64,000 nt of DNA. Source: Devosia rhizoryzae. GTDB lineage: Bacteria; Pseudomonadota; Alphaproteobacteria; Rhizobiales; Devosiaceae. Position numbers and translations under genes: made by a program. Every line of letters starts with the position of its first letter. The first letter of the stretch is position 1. The notes beneath the pieces are model-generated. The model searched no databases, was not told the DNA's origin, and worked only from the letters and a program-made list of their open reading frames with translations. The stretch lies in NCBI RefSeq assembly GCF_016698665.1, contig NZ_CP068046.1:1798001-1862000 (forward strand), given 5' to 3'. Shown here piece after piece: positions 21,292 through 35,999 of the stretch.

Positions 21292-21843
21292 CGTCTTTTC
21301 TCCTTTAGTGATTGTGATCGGCCGAACCGCCTTGAGCGCAACGGCACGCACTGCGGCGACCCGTTTGGTCCAGCCGCGCCCGAAGGTCGGAAAGGTCGCA
21401 AGATTGCGCAGGAAGCTGAGCCGCCCATCGCAAAGGGCATTGACCGTGCGCTTGCCGTCGGCCTGACGCACAGCCGCAAGGGTCACCGGGCCGACGACCC
21501 CGTCGGCGGCGACACTCAAAACTGCCTGCAAAGCTCTGATCGCCCGGTCGGGCCCGGAATTGACGGCATAGTCGAAGACCGCGAGATCGATGCCAATGGG
21601 CAGGCGGTCGGCCCCGGACGCCTCCCAGTAGAGCGCTCGATAGATGCGCCCGGCCTCAGCCCGGCCGAGTTTTCGAACCTCCTCCTTGGGCAGCGCCGTC
21701 CAGGGCGAGACCTGCCGCCATCGCGCCAGCGTCTTGCGAGTAATCCCCATATTGGTGGCGCCACCCGGATCGGTCGGATGATCCGAGTAGCCGCCTTCGT
21801 GTTTGAGCACCTCGGTGAGGCACGTCTCGAACCGGTCAGCCAT
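21106..21843 (-). CDS. Glycoside hydrolase 108-type endolysin fused in frame to a holin-like segment
   Basis: The product has 245 residues. Residues 1-90 carry the GH108 muramidase signature (LKHEGGYSDHPTDPGGATNMG, catalytic Glu in HEGGYS; YWEASGADRLP; FDYAVNSG). Residues ~95-165 fit the associated peptidoglycan-binding domain (AADGVVGPVTLAAV). Residues 185-245 are different: a small membrane protein with a TM helix (TYIVAALMLLAGIAQIMGL) and a second hydrophobic helix (LVLEALAIIFLRQGLK), like phage holin-type small proteins. An AGGAGA ribosome binding site and ATG 21291 precede this part, so it may also be made separately. The gene overlaps g15 by eight bases and ends the GTA cluster. Confidence 0.85.
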   Translation of the reverse strand: MADRFETCLTEVLKHEGGYSDHPTDPGGATNMGITRKTLARWRQVSPWTALPKEEVRKLGRAEAGRIYRALYWEASGADRLPIGIDLAVFDYAVNSGPDRAIRALQAVLSVAADGVVGPVTLAAVRQADGKRTVNALCDGRLSFLRNLATFPTFGRGWTKRVAAVRAVALKAVRPITITKGEKTMDALSGYKTYIVAALMLLAGIAQIMGLEVPSLEGGSAGSLVLEALAIIFLRQGLKTDIGKV

Positions 21844-24800
21844 TGAACCTTCCCCTTCCCCAATATCCTGCGCCGAGCACGGGACTGACCTGCGCTACGG
21901 CAAAGTCGAACGCCACCGCCGGCCCAGCGAAGTCCGCGAGCTGGTCGGCAACCAGATAGCTGGCGACATTCTCCGCCGTCGTGATCGTTCGTTTGAGCGT
22001 CACACCATCATAGATATCGACCCGCCAGGTTTCTGGTCCGGATTCCTGGCCTGGTTCGGCCACGCCCCAGCCATCGCCATTGGCGCGGCTGCGGCGCATC
22101 CAGCGCAACAGCACCGACCCATCTGCCTGCCGCTCCGCCGCTAGGTGAACCGGCGCTAGTGGCAGGGCCGGCCCGGGATCGAGGTCGACGACCAATGGTC
22201 GCCCGGCCATGTCGGCAGCACCCGCAAACACCCGGAGTGTGCGCCTTTCGCCGATGCGGTGCGCTTCGACCGGCAGGCTTACCGTCCCAGCGCCCAGCAC
22301 CATGACCCGTCGCCCGCCCGAAATTGCCGCAGTTTGCGAGCCTTGCAGCCCCCTCAGCAAACGCGTCAGGCGGTAGCGGCCGGCGCTGATCAGCTCCGCA
22401 TCGGCAAAGCCGATCACTTCCCAGCCGCCGCCATCGGTTTCCACGGCCAGCCGATTGCTCCCGGCCAGCGCCGCAGCCTCCTTAACATCGGCGAGATGCC
22501 CCGATCGCAACTGCACCTCGAGCACCGAAGCAAGGTCCCAAACTGCCTCCAGTCCCGCCCCAATGCCCGCCACCACGGTGCCGATCACCGCCGGGCGCGC
22601 CAATCCTGCCAGCGTCGCGCCAGTCACCTCGTCGGTCACGCGCACCGGGCCCGGCCACGGCTTTGCGAAAGCGCCCAGCACCAGCCGCGTTTTGTTCGGA
22701 TCATCGGGCAGCGGCGGCAGATGCGTTGCCACCAAGACCGGCACCACCGCCGGCATCGGCACCCCGCCGCCACCGCGCGGCCGGTCCACGCCGGTCGCCA
22801 CGGCATCTCCCCGCGCAACTGCCGTCGCCGACACCCGCCGCACCGCTCCGTCCCGGATTTCCGTGACCTCGAACGGCCCCTCGGCCAGTTCCGGCAAGGC
22901 AATGCGGTCGCCCGGCTCAAGCGCCACCCTGTTCGGTGGCAGCGCCAGCTCGACGCGATCACCGGCCACCCCCTTGGCGTCCAGCAGCCGCTCTGCGGCC
23001 AGTCGTGCACCGGCTCCATCCAGCACCATCGGCAGGCTCTGGCTTTGCAGCGGTCCATTGCCCGGCCGCAATGCAGTTGCCGTCGCCGTCAGGTAATCGC
23101 GTTCGCGATCGAAGTAACCCAGCCCTAGCCGCCCGGCCTTTTCCGCCCCATCACCCCGGCGACGCGTCACGACCGGTGCATCTAACTCCGCCAGGAGGTC
23201 ATGCTCCAGCGTCACCACCGCGCCGCGCACCAGGCCGACCAGGGTCCCATTGCGCGCCATCAGCTTCTGTCCGGTAATCTCCAGCACCGGCTCGATCGCC
23301 TCGCGCGCCGTACCCGGCCCGCGCACCAGCACACCGCCGATCAGCGGCGCTGCCGGGGCTGCCTCGACCGCGATGCCATGATCGGCCGCAATCGCCCCGA
23401 TCAATTCGTCGCTCGACGCGCCACCCAGCCGCCCGGTCAGCCAGTGCCCGGTGCGATGGTTCGGCCCATCCGACCACACCTCCTCCAGCGCCGGAAAACT
23501 TGGAAATGGCCGCGCATCCCAGGTCCAAAGATAGACCCGGTCGGTATCGACCATCCCCGCCGGATTATTGGCCGGATCGCGCCAGAACTGCTGATGCGCT
23601 CGCAGAAACTGCCGCTGCATCAGTCCGTCCGGCATGCCGCTCGAAAAGTACGGCCGCCCGCCCTCGGCGCTCTTGTCGTCACCAAAAATGTTGGGCTGGT
23701 TCGCCCCCTTGTCAACGGCGCCGCAACCGAGTTCCGTCAGCCAGATCGGTTTTGACCCCGGCACCCATGCCGTCGGCACCGCGCTTCGCACCCCGCCCGG
23801 CCGGTCAAAATGCTGCTGGCTCCAGAAGGCGCGGATATCCTTGTAGCGCCACACCCAGGGCTCGCCGTAAGCCCCGTCGGTGATCGGCGTCCTCACCTGC
23901 GCGCGCCGGTCCGCGTCGCTGGCATAATACCAGTCGAAGCCCTCGCCTCCCGCGACATTGCCTTGAAGATAATCGAGCGCATAGGCAGTCTCGGCCAAAG
24001 CCGCATCGAGATGACCCTCGCCGTCGCGCCAGTCGCTGAGCGGCATGTAGCAGTCGATCCCCACCGCATCGATCGCAGGCGAGGCCCAGAGCGGATCGAG
24101 GTGAAAGAACTTCTCCCCGGCCGCCTGATAACCCGAATACTCGCTCCAATCCGCCGCATAGCTAAGCTTTACGCCCGGCCCCACCACCGCCCGTACATCG
24201 CCTGCCAGCGCCACAAGCGCATCGACGAACGGGAACGTGTTCCCTGCTCCGCGCACGGTGGTCAGCCCCCGCATCTCCGACCCGATCAGCAGCGCATCCG
24301 CCCCCGCGGACGCCGCGATCGACGCATAGTGCAGAACCATGGCCCGATAACCCGGCACGAAGGCCGCAACTCGGCCGCCGATGTCCCAGTGATCCGCCCG
24401 CGCCAAGGGTAAGCTGCCTGCTCCATCCCGCCATACGGGTCCGGCAGGCCATTCCCCGCCGGCACATCCATCATCAACAGCGGATAAAGCGTGACCTTGA
24501 CGCCCCGCGCCCGCAAATCCGCAATCGCCGCCAAAACCGTCGCATCCGAAGGCGTACCGCCATAAGCCGGCCCGCCATTGTGGTAGGAAACCACCGGCAC
24601 ATCGCCGCGCCCCAGCCCCGCGACGCTCCAGCTTACGCCCTCGATATCACGCCCCGCCGCCTCCACCCGCGGGCTCACCTGGCAGTGGGCGCACCTCAGA
24701 TCGTCGCCGAACCAGCTCACCACCAGCGCCACATGCTCCAGGTTGGGGCATAGCGCCATCAACTCGTCGATGGACCAACTCCAGTTGCTGACGCCGGGCA

Positions 24801-25529
24801 GGAGATGGGCGTTCTCGCTCACCCCCTCGCCCTCGCCCAGCACCCGCACCCGCGGCACCGGGTCATAGCCGAACTCGGTCGCCCCCGGGATCACCGTCAC
24901 CGCGCGAATGGAGGGTTCGAGGTCGCCCACCACCCGGCAAAGCTCCACCGAAAGCTGCGGAATACGATTGCCGAAGCGGCTCAGCGGCAGGTTCTCGACC
25001 ACAAGGTAACAGAGCCCGCGATAGGCCGGTGCATTGCCCACCCCCTGCACCGCCTCGATAAGACTGTCCGGCAGTTGCCCTTCGTCGCCGTGATAGAACC
25101 GCAGGTTCAGCCCGCGCGTATCGAGCAACTACCCGTCCGCCCAGATCCGACCCAGCCGCGCCACCCGCCCTTCGCAAAGGCCCACGGCAAAGCTTGCCAG
25201 CACCTCCTCGTGCTGTTCGGGCTCCGGTTGCGCGAACCCCTTCGAGCCCGCCGTTTCGGTCACCTGTCGCAACAGCTCGCGCGCCCAGATGATATTGCCC
25301 GAAAGCCGCCCCCAGCCATAAAGCCGCGGGATCGCGGCCCCTCAGTCGAGCCGCCCAGGCGCACGTCGGACATCGGCGCCTCGCCCGCCTGGCGTTTGTC
25401 GCCAAACAGCATGCCGTCGACCGCCGACCCCGCCAGCGCCCCCAGCGCCCGACCAATGGTCGCCCCGATCGGCCCGCCAAACACGCCGCCAACAAACTGC
25501 CCGGCAACCGACAATGCCAGTGTGGCCAT
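21836..25529 (-). pseudogene. GTA g15 (megatron/host-specificity tail protein), disrupted by two frameshifts and one stop
   Basis: This is the largest GTA tail-tip gene. It starts at ATG 25529 (MATLALSVAGQFVGGVFGGPIGATIG, typical of gp15). The first frame is lost at a CCCC run (25338-25341), where GSTEG should continue as AAIPRLYGWGRL. The restored frame then meets TAG at 25131-25129 in place of a sense codon (IWADG-stop-LLDTRG). A second one-base loss lies at the CCC at 24385-24387 (after PWRGRITG). From there the frame is open to the stop at 21836, with TIM-barrel-like and tail-fibre-type regions. The span is 3694 bases; adding two bases gives exactly 1232 codons. It is likely non-functional unless the lesions are sequencing errors. 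Confidence 0.85.
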
Positions 25530-25563
25530 GTCTTATTCCTATCTTTGGTAAGCGCACAGGACT

Positions 25564-32185: not shown

Positions 32186-32665
32186 CTATCGGTTGCGGAT
32201 TTGTCGTGTGGCGGCGGCAATCGCCGCGCCGGCCGTGAGGGGGGCGGCGATGCGCGCGTCCTCCATCATCGGAAAGGTCACGATCGACACTTCGTAAAGG
32301 TCGATCTCATGAAGCATGCGATAGCCGGTTCCCGGCTCGCGGCTGGCCTTGACCGTGCGAAAGCCGATCGAGAGCCCATCGAGCGCCCGCGCCTCGATCA
32401 GCCGCCGCAGCGCCTCCGCCCGCGGCACGCCGCCCGTCAGCTGCCCGGAAACGAAGAGCCCGTGGCTGTCCTCACCCAGGCTTTCCCAGATGCCGACCGG
32501 CTCCTTGGGATCGTGCTGAAACAAGAGCCGAATGCGCCCGCGCTTTCGGCTGAGGCTTTTGCTGAAAGCTCCCGGCAACACCACGTCGCCGCCGCCGTCG
32601 AGCCGGTTAAAGACACTGGCATAGCCCGAAAAGCGCCCGTCGCCATCGATCGGGATCGCCCCCAT
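32186..32665 (-). CDS. GTA g4, prohead protease
   Basis: The product has 159 residues from ATG 32665 (MGAIPIDGDGRFSGYASVFNRLDGGGDVVLPGAF). It has the U35/HK97 prohead protease pattern FSGYASVF, the His in LLFQHDPKEPVGIW and the catalytic-serine region ALDGLSIGFRTV. The start overlaps the stop of a small upstream ORF as TGATG. Its role is capsid maturation. Length and motifs look intact. Confidence 0.9.
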   Translation of the reverse strand: MGAIPIDGDGRFSGYASVFNRLDGGGDVVLPGAFSKSLSRKRGRIRLLFQHDPKEPVGIWESLGEDSHGLFVSGQLTGGVPRAEALRRLIEARALDGLSIGFRTVKASREPGTGYRMLHEIDLYEVSIVTFPMMEDARIAAPLTAGAAIAAATRQIRNR

Positions 32666-32805
32666 CAGCGCTTGCCCCCCGCCGACCCGCGCCGCGTCTG
32701 CCCTTTGCCCGCACCGCGCTTCTGGTCGGCGATCGTCCCCGCCAGGTTCCACGCAAACTGCTTGAACGTCTGCTGCGCCGCTTCGCGATTTCCCTTTTCG
32801 GTCAT
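32665..32805 (-). CDS. Small 46-aa ORF between g3.5 and protease genes
   Basis: ATG 32805 is preceded by a strong AAGGAGG, part of which lies inside the end of the upstream small gene. The product (MTEKGNREAAQQTFKQFAWNLAGTIADQ... with a basic Gly/Arg-rich tail) is 46 residues. It ends in TGA overlapping the protease ATG. The tight spacing, ribosome binding site and coupled junction argue that it is real. It is basic and could interact with DNA or the capsid; no function is known to me. Confidence 0.65.
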   Translation of the reverse strand: MTEKGNREAAQQTFKQFAWNLAGTIADQKRGAGKGQTRRGSAGGKR

Positions 32806-32809
32806 GTTC

Positions 32810-32998
32810 TTAGTCCTCCTTCCGGAACAGCTGATTCAATGCGGCAATCTCGCGCACGAAGTCGTTGAAGTGCCGGTTCACCTGCGCCATTTCCTTGAGG
32901 CTCCACACCAGAAGCGCACTCGCCCCGCTCGCCCACAAAAACAGCGCCAAATGCGCCAGATCCCCCCGCTCGATGATGGTCTTGGTCAGGTCATTCAC
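32810..32998 (-). CDS. GTA g3.5-like small membrane protein
   Basis: This 62-residue protein (MNDLTKTIIERGDLAHLALFLWASGASALLVWSLKEMA) has one TM helix and a charged helical tail. GTA clusters carry a small ORF of this kind between portal and protease genes. Here it is separated from the portal gene by an inserted antisense gene pair, so its upstream region is shared with the divergent promoter of that pair. Confidence 0.75.
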   Translation of the reverse strand: MNDLTKTIIERGDLAHLALFLWASGASALLVWSLKEMAQVNRHFNDFVREIAALNQLFRKED

Positions 32999-33093
32999 AG
33001 GAAATTTCCCCCTCCGTTAACCTGGCGGCGGCTAGGCCAAGACTCTTGGTGCAGCCGCACGCTAGCGTCATGCCAAATTGGACAGGAGGCTTC
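32999..33093. promoter_or_regulatory. Gap between GTA g3.5 and the antisense DUF4160 gene
   Basis: Divergent starts (32998 minus, 33094 plus) leave 95 bases that must carry the promoter of the inserted plus-strand pair, and possibly an internal GTA promoter. I see only the ribosome binding site GGAGG before 33094 and no clear -35/-10. Confidence 0.35.
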
Positions 33094-33336
33094 ATGCCCA
33101 CGATCCTTCGCCTGGACGGCTACCGGTTTTATTTCTACAGCGGTGAGGGCAACGAGCCGCCCCACATCCATGTTGAATTCGGTGACAAGCTCGCCAAGTA
33201 TTGGCTTGAGCCCGTGGAACTGGCATCATCGAAACGGTTCCGCGCTCATGAGCTTGGGCCGTTGCGCGAGGTAGTGCTCGCCAATCGAGATGCATTCCTG
33301 AAGGCGTGGCATGAACACCTTGACCCTCGAAACTGA
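33094..33336 (+). CDS. DUF4160 protein (toxin-antitoxin-like pair)
   Basis: The product has 80 residues from ATG 33094, with GGAGG six bases upstream. The sequence MPTILRLDGYRFYFYSGEGNEPPHIHVEF followed by AKYWLEPVELA is the DUF4160 signature (yrFyFyS.E..EPpHiHVe). DUF4160 genes are commonly followed by a DUF2442 gene, as here with a 26-base overlap, and such pairs have been proposed as toxin-antitoxin modules. The gene is on the strand opposite to the surrounding GTA genes. Its product is cytosolic and its biochemical role is unknown. Confidence 0.88.
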   Translation: MPTILRLDGYRFYFYSGEGNEPPHIHVEFGDKLAKYWLEPVELASSKRFRAHELGPLREVVLANRDAFLKAWHEHLDPRN

Positions 33337-33574
33337 ACCGCTCGCAATTGACGTCTCCGTTGACGACACGACGCTTCATGTCAGTCTCGACGACGGCCGC
33401 GGGCTGTCGGTGCCCGTTGCCTGGTTCCCGCGGCTGCGCGATGCGTCGCAGGCCCATCGCGCCAACTGGCGCTTGATCGGCGTCGGTGAGGGCATTCACT
33501 GGGAAGACCTCGACGAAGATATTTCCGTCCTTGGGCTTCTGGCTGGCTATCGCCGCCAGTCACGTGCCGCCTAG
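33311..33574 (+). CDS. DUF2442 protein (toxin-antitoxin-like partner)
   Basis: This 87-residue protein has the DUF2442 pattern: VSVDDTTLHVSLDDGRGLSVPVAWFPRLRDASQAHRANWRLIGVGEGIHWEDLDEDISVLGLLAG. The start lies inside the DUF4160 gene (26-base overlap). Its end overlaps the portal gene stop by 15 bases on the opposite strand. It is probably the DNA-binding or antitoxin-like member of the pair (inference). Confidence 0.88.
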   Translation: MNTLTLETEPLAIDVSVDDTTLHVSLDDGRGLSVPVAWFPRLRDASQAHRANWRLIGVGEGIHWEDLDEDISVLGLLAGYRRQSRAA

Positions 33575-34723
33575 CCCCACCAGCTCCCGCTTCTCAGCGT
33601 CGGTCAGAAAATCCGCCGCGCTCACCCGTGCCCACAAGCTCGCCTTGTCGTCGGCCAGTGCCTCGACCCCGTCGAAATCAGGTACCACCTCAGCCCCATC
33701 AAACGCGGGCCCCAGCCATCCGCTCAATTCCTCGGCCACACGCACCACGAGCGGCACCAGGGTTTGGCGCCACAGCGCCCGATTGGCTTCGGCGAGGTTG
33801 GCATAGGTATTGTCGCCGGGGATGCCGAGCAGCATGGGCGGCACGCCGAAGGCGAGCGCAATGTCGCGCGCCGCCGCATGGCGCGCCTCGATGAAATCCA
33901 TTTCGCGCGGGCTCATGGCGATGGCCTTCCAGTCCAGCCCCCCATCGAGCACCATGGGCCGGCCCGCATTCGCCGCCCCCGAAAACTGCTCCTCCAGCTC
34001 GCCCTTGAGCCGGCTGAACTGGTCTTCGGTTAGGTTTCCGCCCGCCGCCGAATAAACCAGTGCCCCGCTCGGCCGCGCCGCATTGTCGAGCAGCGCCTTA
34101 TTCCACTGCGCCGAGGCATTGTGGATATCGAGGCTCGTCTGCGCGGCCTCGAGCGGCGCCATGCCATAGTGGTCGTCCAGCGGGTGGAACAGCGCCAGGT
34201 GCAAGACGCCCGGCACCGGCAGCGGCTCCTGCCCAATCCGCGTCGCCCTGCCCCCGGCCTTGTAGTCATAAGCCACCGGCCAGCCGTCGCGCCCGGCCAC
34301 CACGCTCATTCGATCCGGCCGCAGCACGAATAGGGTGCGCACCGCGCCATCGACGATCCCGGCCTGGAGATACGCATTCCCCGCCGTCTGCAGATAGGCA
34401 TAAACCGCTTCCAGCAGTTCCGCGCCGGACTGCCGGCCGTTGGGCCGCGCTAGCAACTCCGCCAGCGGATGATCGGCGACCTTCTGCCCGTCCGCCACCA
34501 CGGTGAGCGGCACCCGGTTGGCGGCCTCGGCAATCAGCCGTATGCAGCGATAAACCACCGGATTGCGCATGAACCCCTGGTTGACGAGGCTGGCATAGCC
34601 GCGCCCGCTCCATTGCGCCGGCCCCAGCTGGCTTAGGGTCAGCATGGTGTGGCCCGCAAAAGCCTTGCTTTCACGAGGCGTGTTCGATCGCCCGCCCAAA
34701 AGGCGGTTCATCCAGTTAGCCAT
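33560..34723 (-). CDS. GTA g3, portal protein
   Basis: This 387-residue protein matches HK97-type portals: SLVNQGFMRNPVVYRCIRLIAEAANRVPLTV, HPLAELLARPNGRQSGAELLEAVYAYLQTAGNAYLQ and FGVPPMLLGIPGDNTYANLAEANRALWRQTLVPL. It forms the DNA-entry vertex ring. Length is normal. The C terminus overlaps the convergent DUF2442 gene by 15 bases but still ends naturally (LVGLGGT), so the insertion did not truncate it. Confidence 0.94.
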   Translation of the reverse strand: MANWMNRLLGGRSNTPRESKAFAGHTMLTLSQLGPAQWSGRGYASLVNQGFMRNPVVYRCIRLIAEAANRVPLTVVADGQKVADHPLAELLARPNGRQSGAELLEAVYAYLQTAGNAYLQAGIVDGAVRTLFVLRPDRMSVVAGRDGWPVAYDYKAGGRATRIGQEPLPVPGVLHLALFHPLDDHYGMAPLEAAQTSLDIHNASAQWNKALLDNAARPSGALVYSAAGGNLTEDQFSRLKGELEEQFSGAANAGRPMVLDGGLDWKAIAMSPREMDFIEARHAAARDIALAFGVPPMLLGIPGDNTYANLAEANRALWRQTLVPLVVRVAEELSGWLGPAFDGAEVVPDFDGVEALADDKASLWARVSAADFLTDAEKRELVGLGGT

Positions 34724-34733
34724 CTAGTTATCC

Positions 34734-35999
34734 TCAAAGTCCGCGGATGCGCGGCCGTCTTTCGTTCAGCACCAGCTCGGTCAGCGCCCAGACCAGCGCA
34801 TCCACGCGATCCGGCGAATGCCCGTCCGCCTTACCGTCCGGGCCAAAGGCGCAAAGTTCGTCTTCGAGCGCTGTCAGCCCCTCGACATGGCGCACCAGCC
34901 CCCTGGCATAAAGCGCCGCCACCGGCTCAGTGCGCACCCAATTGCCGCGCGTCGCCCGCGCCTCGCGCACCGGCACGCTCGGGTCTTCCCCATGCAGCAT
35001 TTGCTTCACCAGATCGCCGCCCTGGTTGACCTCGACCACGATGCAGTCGGCGTCATGAGCATGAAACGCCGCCACTGCGCGCTTGGCCCAAACCGTCGGC
35101 TGCACGCCGCGCAACGTCGCGTCCTCCAGCACCACGGCGCCCTCCCCGCTCCGTCCCGCCACGACGATGCCACAGGCATCGGAGCGCGCCGTGCCGGTGA
35201 CTGCCGGATCCACCGCCACCACCACCCGCCCGTCAGCCCCCTCGCTGCCGTGCCGAAACATCGCGCGCTGCCAGAGCGCATCCTCGCGATCCTCGATCAG
35301 CTCGCCCTCGAGTTCCTGCCGGCCTAGCAAGGTTCCCCGATAACGCCCAACGACCGCATCCATGAAAGATGGCGCCAGATACTTATAGTTATCCTGGGTG
35401 GTCATCCGCACCACCCGCGTTTGATTGTCCGAAACGAGCCGCTTTATCAGCGGCGTCGCACGCGGCGTGGTGGTCGCCAGCTGCTGCGGCCGGTCCCCCA
35501 GCCGGAGGCCAAACTGCAGCTGATCCCAGGCCTCCTCTGCCCGCGGCCATTTGCCGATTTCATCGCACCAGGCCGCAGCAAACTGGGGACCGCGAAATCG
35601 CTCCGGATCAGAAGCCGTCATGATCATGGCCTCGACCTTGTTGGGCCATACAAGGCGGTTATTTCCCTTGAGCACTGGCCGCTCTTCATCCGGACAGGTT
35701 GCGAGAAGTCCGCTTTCCCCGCGCACCATGATGTCGAGCGCCTCGCCCATGGTTTCGCCCACCAAAGCAATGGGCCCAATCTCTTGCCGGGCCAAGCCCC
35801 GAACCCATTCGGCGCCGGCCCGCGTCTTGCCCGATCCGCGTCCCCCCATGAGCAGCCAGGTTGTCCAGTCTCCCTCGGGCGCCAGTTGTTCGGGTCTTGC
35901 CCAATCAGGCCACGAGAACAAAAGCCGATAGGCTTCGTCATCGCTCTTGAGGGCCACTTCGCGCTCGGCTTCCTCGCGGTTAGCGCTTTGATTGGGCAA
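34734..35999 (-). CDS. terL: GTA g2, large terminase subunit
   Basis: This 421-residue DNA packaging motor has Walker A GGRGSGKT at residues 52-59, an ATPase region with AWCDEIGKWPRAEEAWDQLQFGLR and ATTTPRATPLIK, and a C-terminal RNase-H-like nuclease with VAVDPAVTG and HSPDRVDALVWAL. The start is TTG 35999, overlapping g1 by 20 bases; no better start is visible. In GTAs the terminase packages random host DNA by headful cutting. Confidence 0.94.
   Translation of the reverse strand: MPNQSANREEAEREVALKSDDEAYRLLFSWPDWARPEQLAPEGDWTTWLLMGGRGSGKTRAGAEWVRGLARQEIGPIALVGETMGEALDIMVRGESGLLATCPDEERPVLKGNNRLVWPNKVEAMIMTASDPERFRGPQFAAAWCDEIGKWPRAEEAWDQLQFGLRLGDRPQQLATTTPRATPLIKRLVSDNQTRVVRMTTQDNYKYLAPSFMDAVVGRYRGTLLGRQELEGELIEDREDALWQRAMFRHGSEGADGRVVVAVDPAVTGTARSDACGIVVAGRSGEGAVVLEDATLRGVQPTVWAKRAVAAFHAHDADCIVVEVNQGGDLVKQMLHGEDPSVPVREARATRGNWVRTEPVAALYARGLVRHVEGLTALEDELCAFGPDGKADGHSPDRVDALVWALTELVLNERRPRIRGL

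Follow-up and report, generated by a model that had tools for sequence, protein, structure and literature searches.

A DUF4160/DUF2442 toxin-antitoxin-type gene pair occupies a variable junction of the GTA cluster in four genera of Devosiaceae

Between the portal gene (g3) and the g3.5 gene of its GTA cluster, Devosia rhizoryzae carries a small antisense unit of two genes encoding a DUF4160 and a DUF2442 protein. This arrangement is more than chance, as eight further Devosiaceae genomes hold the pair at the same junction and in the same orientation. By analogy with dhiTA and the Thermus Persistence-Enhancing Module (PEM), the pair would be a type II toxin-antitoxin module of a kind already known, and we consider it probable that it lives as a self-maintaining passenger of a variable slot in the GTA cluster. 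Coordinates given below without a locus name refer to the window, that is the whole stretch of 64,000 nucleotides analyzed (contig NZ_CP068046.1, positions 1,798,001 to 1,862,000 of the forward strand).

The first gene of the pair (33094..33336, plus strand) encodes a DUF4160 protein of 80 aa, the putative toxin (PF13711, 66.5 bits for a cut-off of 23). Its AGGAGG ribosome-binding site lies at 33084-33089 (plus strand), 4 nt 5' of the ATG at 33094. The second gene (33311..33574, plus strand) encodes a DUF2442 protein of 87 aa, the putative antitoxin (PF10387, 78.4 bits for a cut-off of 23.9). Both genes share the 26 bp from 33311 to 33336, and the end of the DUF2442 gene at 33574 runs 15 bp into the convergent portal ORF on the minus strand (33560-34723). 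A first-pass annotation of this DNA had described the two ORFs, their 26-bp overlap, the GGAGG-type start and the 15-bp overlap with the portal stop, all of which are confirmed. Its reading of the pair as a toxin-antitoxin module is well supported by the Pfam families of the two proteins and by the literature, and the antisense placement that it reported is real and recurs at all nine pair-bearing sites. More specifically, the DUF4160 protein scores 24.8 bits against the NCBIfam equivalog model of DhiT (NF048015, toxin_DhiT), which is below the curated cut-off of 100. The DUF2442 protein matches the PDB entry 3k8r (E 7.8e-6), and a PDB sequence search with the DUF4160 protein returned no credible relative (best E 0.24).

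The order found here, with the toxin gene first and the antitoxin gene second, is that of two published systems. In Dickeya dadantii 3937, dhiTA is a small chromosomal bicistron in which a DUF4160 gene is likewise followed by an overlapping DUF2442 gene; its overlap measures 3 bp, compared to 26 bp here (PMC8198452). Unlike dhiTA, which is a free-standing locus, the present pair resides in a GTA cluster and reaches only the above score with the DhiT model. In the Dickeya study, growth is inhibited by overexpression of dhiT and not by co-expression of both genes, and the dhiTA promoter is repressed both by the antitoxin and by the complex (PMC8198452). In the same study, plasmid maintenance in E. 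coli is raised by ccdAB2 only and not by dhiTA (PMC8198452). The second system, the PEM of Thermus thermophilus, is a plasmid module in which DUF4160 also precedes DUF2442. Its second ORF is required to tolerate the first, deletion of ORF2 yielding no transformants, the two products are predicted to form a heterodimer, and the module increases plasmid persistence (PMC12724237). In E. coli, no effect of the Thermus ORFs, ORF1 included, was visible (PMC12724237). Unlike the pair described here, the Thermus PEM is plasmid-borne beside a replication gene, has a demonstrated effect on persistence and is not linked to a GTA (PMC12724237).

The genes surrounding the pair stand in the order expected of a GTA. 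All on the minus strand, these are the large terminase (g2, 34734..35999; PF03237 and PF17289), the portal (33560..34723; PF04860, 292.7 bits), a g3.5-like ORF of 62 aa (32810..32998) and the prohead protease (g4, 32186..32752; PF04586, 110.1 bits). The g3.5-like ORF gave no match in a Pfam search and is recognized by its homologues, which lie 3' of the portal family-wide; it is divergent from the pair, with 95 bp between the starts. Elsewhere in the cluster, the NCBIfam model GTA_megatron is matched with 871.5 bits (cut-off 800) and the phage/GTA baseplate hub model TIGR02218 with 230.3 bits (cut-off 80.5), both passing; RcGTA_tape, at 131.4 bits, stays under its own cut-off of 220. Judged by synteny and by these GTA-specific models, the cluster is of the RcGTA type. 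The portal protein points to the genus Devosia as the source of the window, since its named relatives at 78% identity or above come from there. It has in common with other RcGTA-type clusters the succession of terminase, portal, g3.5, protease, capsid and GTA_megatron tail genes and, unlike those found elsewhere, the Devosiaceae clusters often have extra genes at the junction behind the portal.

A separate observation concerns the GTA_megatron (g15-like) gene of the focal genome, which is broken over three reading frames (approximately 21836-25560, minus strand). The corresponding gene is a single ORF of 1247-1312 aa in G040, G013 and G002, and G025 also has a shorter ORF. This split makes GTA activity in the focal strain doubtful: the GTA may be inactive, or the split may be an assembly error.

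To survey the distribution of the pair, 136 Devosiaceae genomes were searched for close relatives of DUF4160 (E<=1e-20), and ten were found to contain one copy each. Nine of the ten copies lie antisense at the portal/g3.5 junction, in genomes from four genera: four are Devosia (the focal genome G000, G023, G059 and G074), three belong to a second genus (G480, G482 and G485), one to a third (G460) and one to a fourth (G488). The tenth copy (G009, L205:5038-5518, minus strand) has no adjoining GTA genes and is located between what we take, from our own reading of the ORFs, to be a glyS-like and a DUF2207-like gene; at the GTA junction of G009 itself, one of the toxin-like cassettes described below stands in place of the pair. 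This copy shows that the DUF4160/DUF2442 module can move alone. Outside the family, the pair was absent from all 61 portal loci examined (E<=1e-3).

The same comparison bears on the age of the insertion. The first-pass annotation had allowed for a recent insertion that could be dated, which does not agree with the presence of the pair at one junction in four Devosiaceae genera; a recent insertion is ruled out by the family-wide comparison of sites. As a refuting case it had named constant presence of the pair here among relatives. Half of this stands, as the pair is old at the site, and the other half fails, as only 9 of the 102 portal sites have it. Because so few portal sites carry the pair, we regard it as old yet dispensable to GTA carriage.

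These 102 sites (54 from Devosia and 48 from other Devosiaceae) reveal that the junction behind the portal is an insertion hotspot, with inserts between portal and g3.5 ranging from -8 to 3450 bp. Thirty-three sites are empty, having g3.5 within 60 bp, and two are unreadable (G001 and G462). One of the nine pair-bearing sites (G023) holds a cassette too. DUF2442 occurs by itself at five sites (G024, G010, where it is split over two frames, G483, G484 and G486), and DUF4160 by itself at none, using tblastn with E<=1e-3 for Devosia or 1e-2 for the others. The DUF2442 retained in G024 stands beside a short frame whose end resembles the toxin C terminus; those of G483, G484 and G486 are only 45-58% identical and may represent another lineage. 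Where the pair is complete, the stops of DUF2442 and portal overlap by 4 bp in G485, G480 and G482 and by 15 bp in G000, and are 3 bp apart in G460 and G488; in G074 the DUF2442 match runs exactly up to the portal stop. In G059 and G023, other DNA separates the pair from the portal stop, over 148 and 2851 bp, respectively. In the portal tree, which was rooted by choice on the most divergent genus, the earliest lineages have empty junctions, suggesting that the slot was filled later.

Sequence divergence was assessed for both genes in five copies of the pair. Nonsynonymous distances (dN) amount to 0.02-0.20 for DUF4160 and 0.07-0.18 for DUF2442, compared to synonymous distances (dS) of 0.5-2.0. 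The resulting dN/dS is about 0.04-0.27 in eight of ten comparisons for DUF4160, the remaining two being saturated, and about 0.08-0.22 in nine of ten for DUF2442, with one saturated. These ratios indicate that both genes are under purifying selection and that both proteins are kept.

Descent and exchange were compared using an unrooted tree of the ten pair copies and the portal tree. Both trees split G000 and G023 from the rest (support 82 for the pair and 100 for the portal), and they are compatible on the division between Devosia and the other genera, with support of 44 and 99, respectively. They conflict within the second genus, for which the pair groups G485 with G480 (99) and the portal groups G480 with G482 (95). 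Mutual rejection of the two topologies is weak (AU p 0.036 and 0.045) in tests based on the nine pair carriers only; a version with 22 taxa and exclusive-sister constraints was too strict. The displaced copy of G009 clusters with G023 (support 68). This pattern fits old descent plus some exchange, to which pure descent or repeated re-entry would be the alternatives.

Regulatory signals were sought between 32700 and 33700. The scan for sigma-70-like promoters found none (0.2 expected), and one terminator-like site was found (0.7 expected). The gap between g3.5 and the pair contains an imperfect inverted repeat (33028..33058; 15+15 nt with a 1-nt loop), a candidate operator; of 200 base shuffles, 3.5% surpass it. 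Differing repeats are present at other places in G023 (exceeded by 0 of 200 shuffles) and G482 (4.5%), and the other six of the nine pair sites have no inverted repeat below 8.5% of shuffles. A conserved operator or promoter 5' of the pair thus found no support, there being no sigma-70 match and no position-conserved repeat in the nine sites. We also do not claim an internal antitoxin promoter within DUF4160: codons ~28-46 of this gene appear somewhat conserved in the codon table of the five copies.

The same slot is used by a second kind of insert. Portal-coupled ORFs resembling polymorphic toxins, such as L034:1168-1821 (plus strand), are found at 22 of the 102 sites, plus G002 and, by eye, G489 and others. 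These cassette ORFs, which share the reading direction of the portal, have in common a stretch of about 50 residues that ends in a motif like RYRPDQPRAPKGTPEGGQW and is followed by a variable C terminus; under our start rule, 18 of 23 ORFs start no more than 4 bases from the portal stop. Their median identity is 0.56 in the N-terminal 45 residues and 0.26 in the C-terminal part, and single linkage at 35% identity puts 19 of 22 C termini in one group and does not separate families. Three things lead us to call the C termini variable: the difference between these identities, the single Pfam toxin domain and inspection of the sequences. That domain, an RNase A toxin domain of the CdiA type (PF18431, E 1.7e-11), terminates the cassette of G025. 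The remaining first cassette ORFs scanned gave no Pfam toxin match above cut-off, and the RNase-A cassette gave no match in phage records. In a metagenomic protein of 330 aa (P0021), an RNase A toxin domain is fused to a portal C terminus with a RYRPDQPRAPAGASDGGRW stretch between them; the motif is that of the cassettes and the toxin domain that of G025. In G024 (L056), the portal tail is present in two almost identical copies, the second of them between the cassette and the orphan DUF2442, as expected if cassettes enter via recombination in the portal end. Partial duplicates of g3.5 are seen in G004 and G023.

A related placement has been described in temperate phages, whose MuF polymorphic toxin genes sit directly 3' of the portal gene (PMC5576092). 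The likeness extends to the neighbouring cassettes only, as toxin-bearing genes directly behind a portal gene. Unlike MuF systems, the cassettes have no MuF domain in the ORFs scanned, and the element that hosts them is a GTA instead of a phage. More precisely, the Pfam matches at E<=1 of the five GGQW-type first ORFs (10 proteins scanned) comprise just RNAse_A_bac and a weak DUF4258. Insertions at this position also exist beyond Devosiaceae: the distance from portal to protease is more than 600 bp at 14 of the 61 named portal loci, and inspection of those 14 revealed two GTA-like clusters with other toxin-antitoxin-like pairs in this interval. One consists of RHH_1 and ParE, both over cut-off (L128:6088-6737, plus strand), the other of DUF4258, over cut-off, and an MqsA-like gene (48 bits, cut-off 61.8; L131:7426-8243, plus strand).

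The reading that we favour with some confidence, a type II toxin-antitoxin module living as a self-maintaining passenger of the variable GTA slot, is suggested by the site-bound copies, the purifying selection and the asymmetric decay, with five DUF2442-only sites against no DUF4160-only site. The module, made of a toxin gene and an overlapping antitoxin gene with its own start and read against the GTA operon, would have been acquired by an ancestor of one subgroup of Devosiaceae, in the slot that directly follows the stop of the portal gene. It would since have been inherited vertically, perhaps with a degree of exchange by way of the GTA genes on either side, and in most lineages the pair would have been lost or displaced, often by toxin-immunity-like cassettes using the same slot. 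The domains, their order and overlap, the conserved site and orientation, the purifying selection and the pattern of loss are observed in the pair itself. As carried over from the published relatives, DUF2442 would bind DUF4160, keep the toxin inactive and repress the operon; toxicity, neutralisation and repression by the present pair would thus take after theirs. Once the module is lost by deletion or allele replacement, the longer-lived toxin would remain and the cell would be inhibited, which would amount to addiction at this locus. Arguing against this reading are the lack of plasmid stabilisation by dhiTA, the silence of the Thermus ORF1 in E. coli, the 44% support for the genus split in the pair tree, the one grouping on which pair and portal trees conflict, the failure to find a sigma-70-like promoter or a conserved operator, and the missed DhiT cut-off. 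Maintenance of the GTA cluster by the pair is possible; most sites that retain the portal do so without the pair and, being missing from about nine tenths of the junctions, it would be a weak guardian.

Other explanations account for part of these observations. If the pair were ordinary mobile toxin-antitoxin cargo, neutral and decaying at a place between two GTA genes where inserts are tolerated, its sporadic presence, the orphan or split DUF2442 at five sites, the replacement by other inserts and the wide range of insert lengths would all be expected; we nevertheless find this unlikely, given a dN/dS well below 1 in both genes at synonymous distances of 0.5-2 and the persistence of the pair at one position in four genera. 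Still less probable, in our judgment, is that the pair acts as a sensor of, or a brake on, the GTA. The antisense GTA transcript would then lower expression of the pair, the labile antitoxin would be depleted first, and the toxin would halt or kill the GTA producer; as a variant, the pair's own transcript would reach the portal gene and dampen GTA expression. Consistent with either form, the pair is antisense at nine of nine sites, contacts or overlaps the portal stop to stop at seven of nine, and is separated from the portal by no strong terminator. However, a single insertion kept by descent accounts for the constant orientation with no need of a function, the pair is missing from about nine tenths of the sites, and in G059 and G023 it stands 148 and 2851 bp off the portal stop. 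Finally, the hotspot is common to the pair and the toxin-like cassettes, and other families have unrelated toxin-antitoxin pairs at this junction. This could point to a protective module, directed either at phage or at rival cassettes and GTA alleles that enter the slot. With zero matches of the pair to the PADLOC defence models at E<=1, we consider such a role very improbable.

Beyond the passenger account, we put forward tentatively, and with a small but appreciable chance of being right, that Devosiaceae GTAs possess a weapons slot behind the portal. The polymorphic-toxin cassettes, which start at the portal stop and in one metagenomic relative are fused to the portal C terminus, would be loaded via the portal into particles and delivered with DNA. 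The pair would be an older occupant of the slot that, through its antisense position, couples the release of toxin to GTA transcription or puts a price on losing the slot. GTAs are usually viewed as tightly conserved, domesticated gene clusters. Here, a junction of the head-gene block has repeatedly taken up toxin-antitoxin and toxin-immunity-like modules, and one toxin-antitoxin lineage has been kept across four genera. It offers a natural system in which to study two questions, namely whether addiction keeps GTA clusters in genomes and whether the particles transfer anything besides DNA. As far as our searches show, a toxin-antitoxin lineage bound to one GTA-cluster junction across genera, together with a toxin-rich slot, is new within the literature searched: judged by titles and the start of abstracts, with subscription papers mostly outside the scope, no paper described polymorphic toxins or toxin-antitoxin systems within a GTA cluster.

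The DUF4160 family itself is spread more widely than the junction. Matches to the Pfam model occur at 27 places spread over 18 of the 61 Devosia genomes, and three of these places are at the junction. Among phage records, one of 50,697 has a DUF4160 match. Plasmids gave 39 DUF4160-matching records among 72,556, and DUF2442 is annotated at ten of the ten matches listed. The focal genome has two further DUF4160 matches elsewhere; one of these, located some 24 kb ahead of the first base of the window (L003, G000:C1:1773994-1774182), contains an in-frame TAG. In metagenomic data, a DUF4160 relative (P0089) and a cassette protein (P0049) were both found on contigs of 131,427 bases, which are probably one and the same contig.
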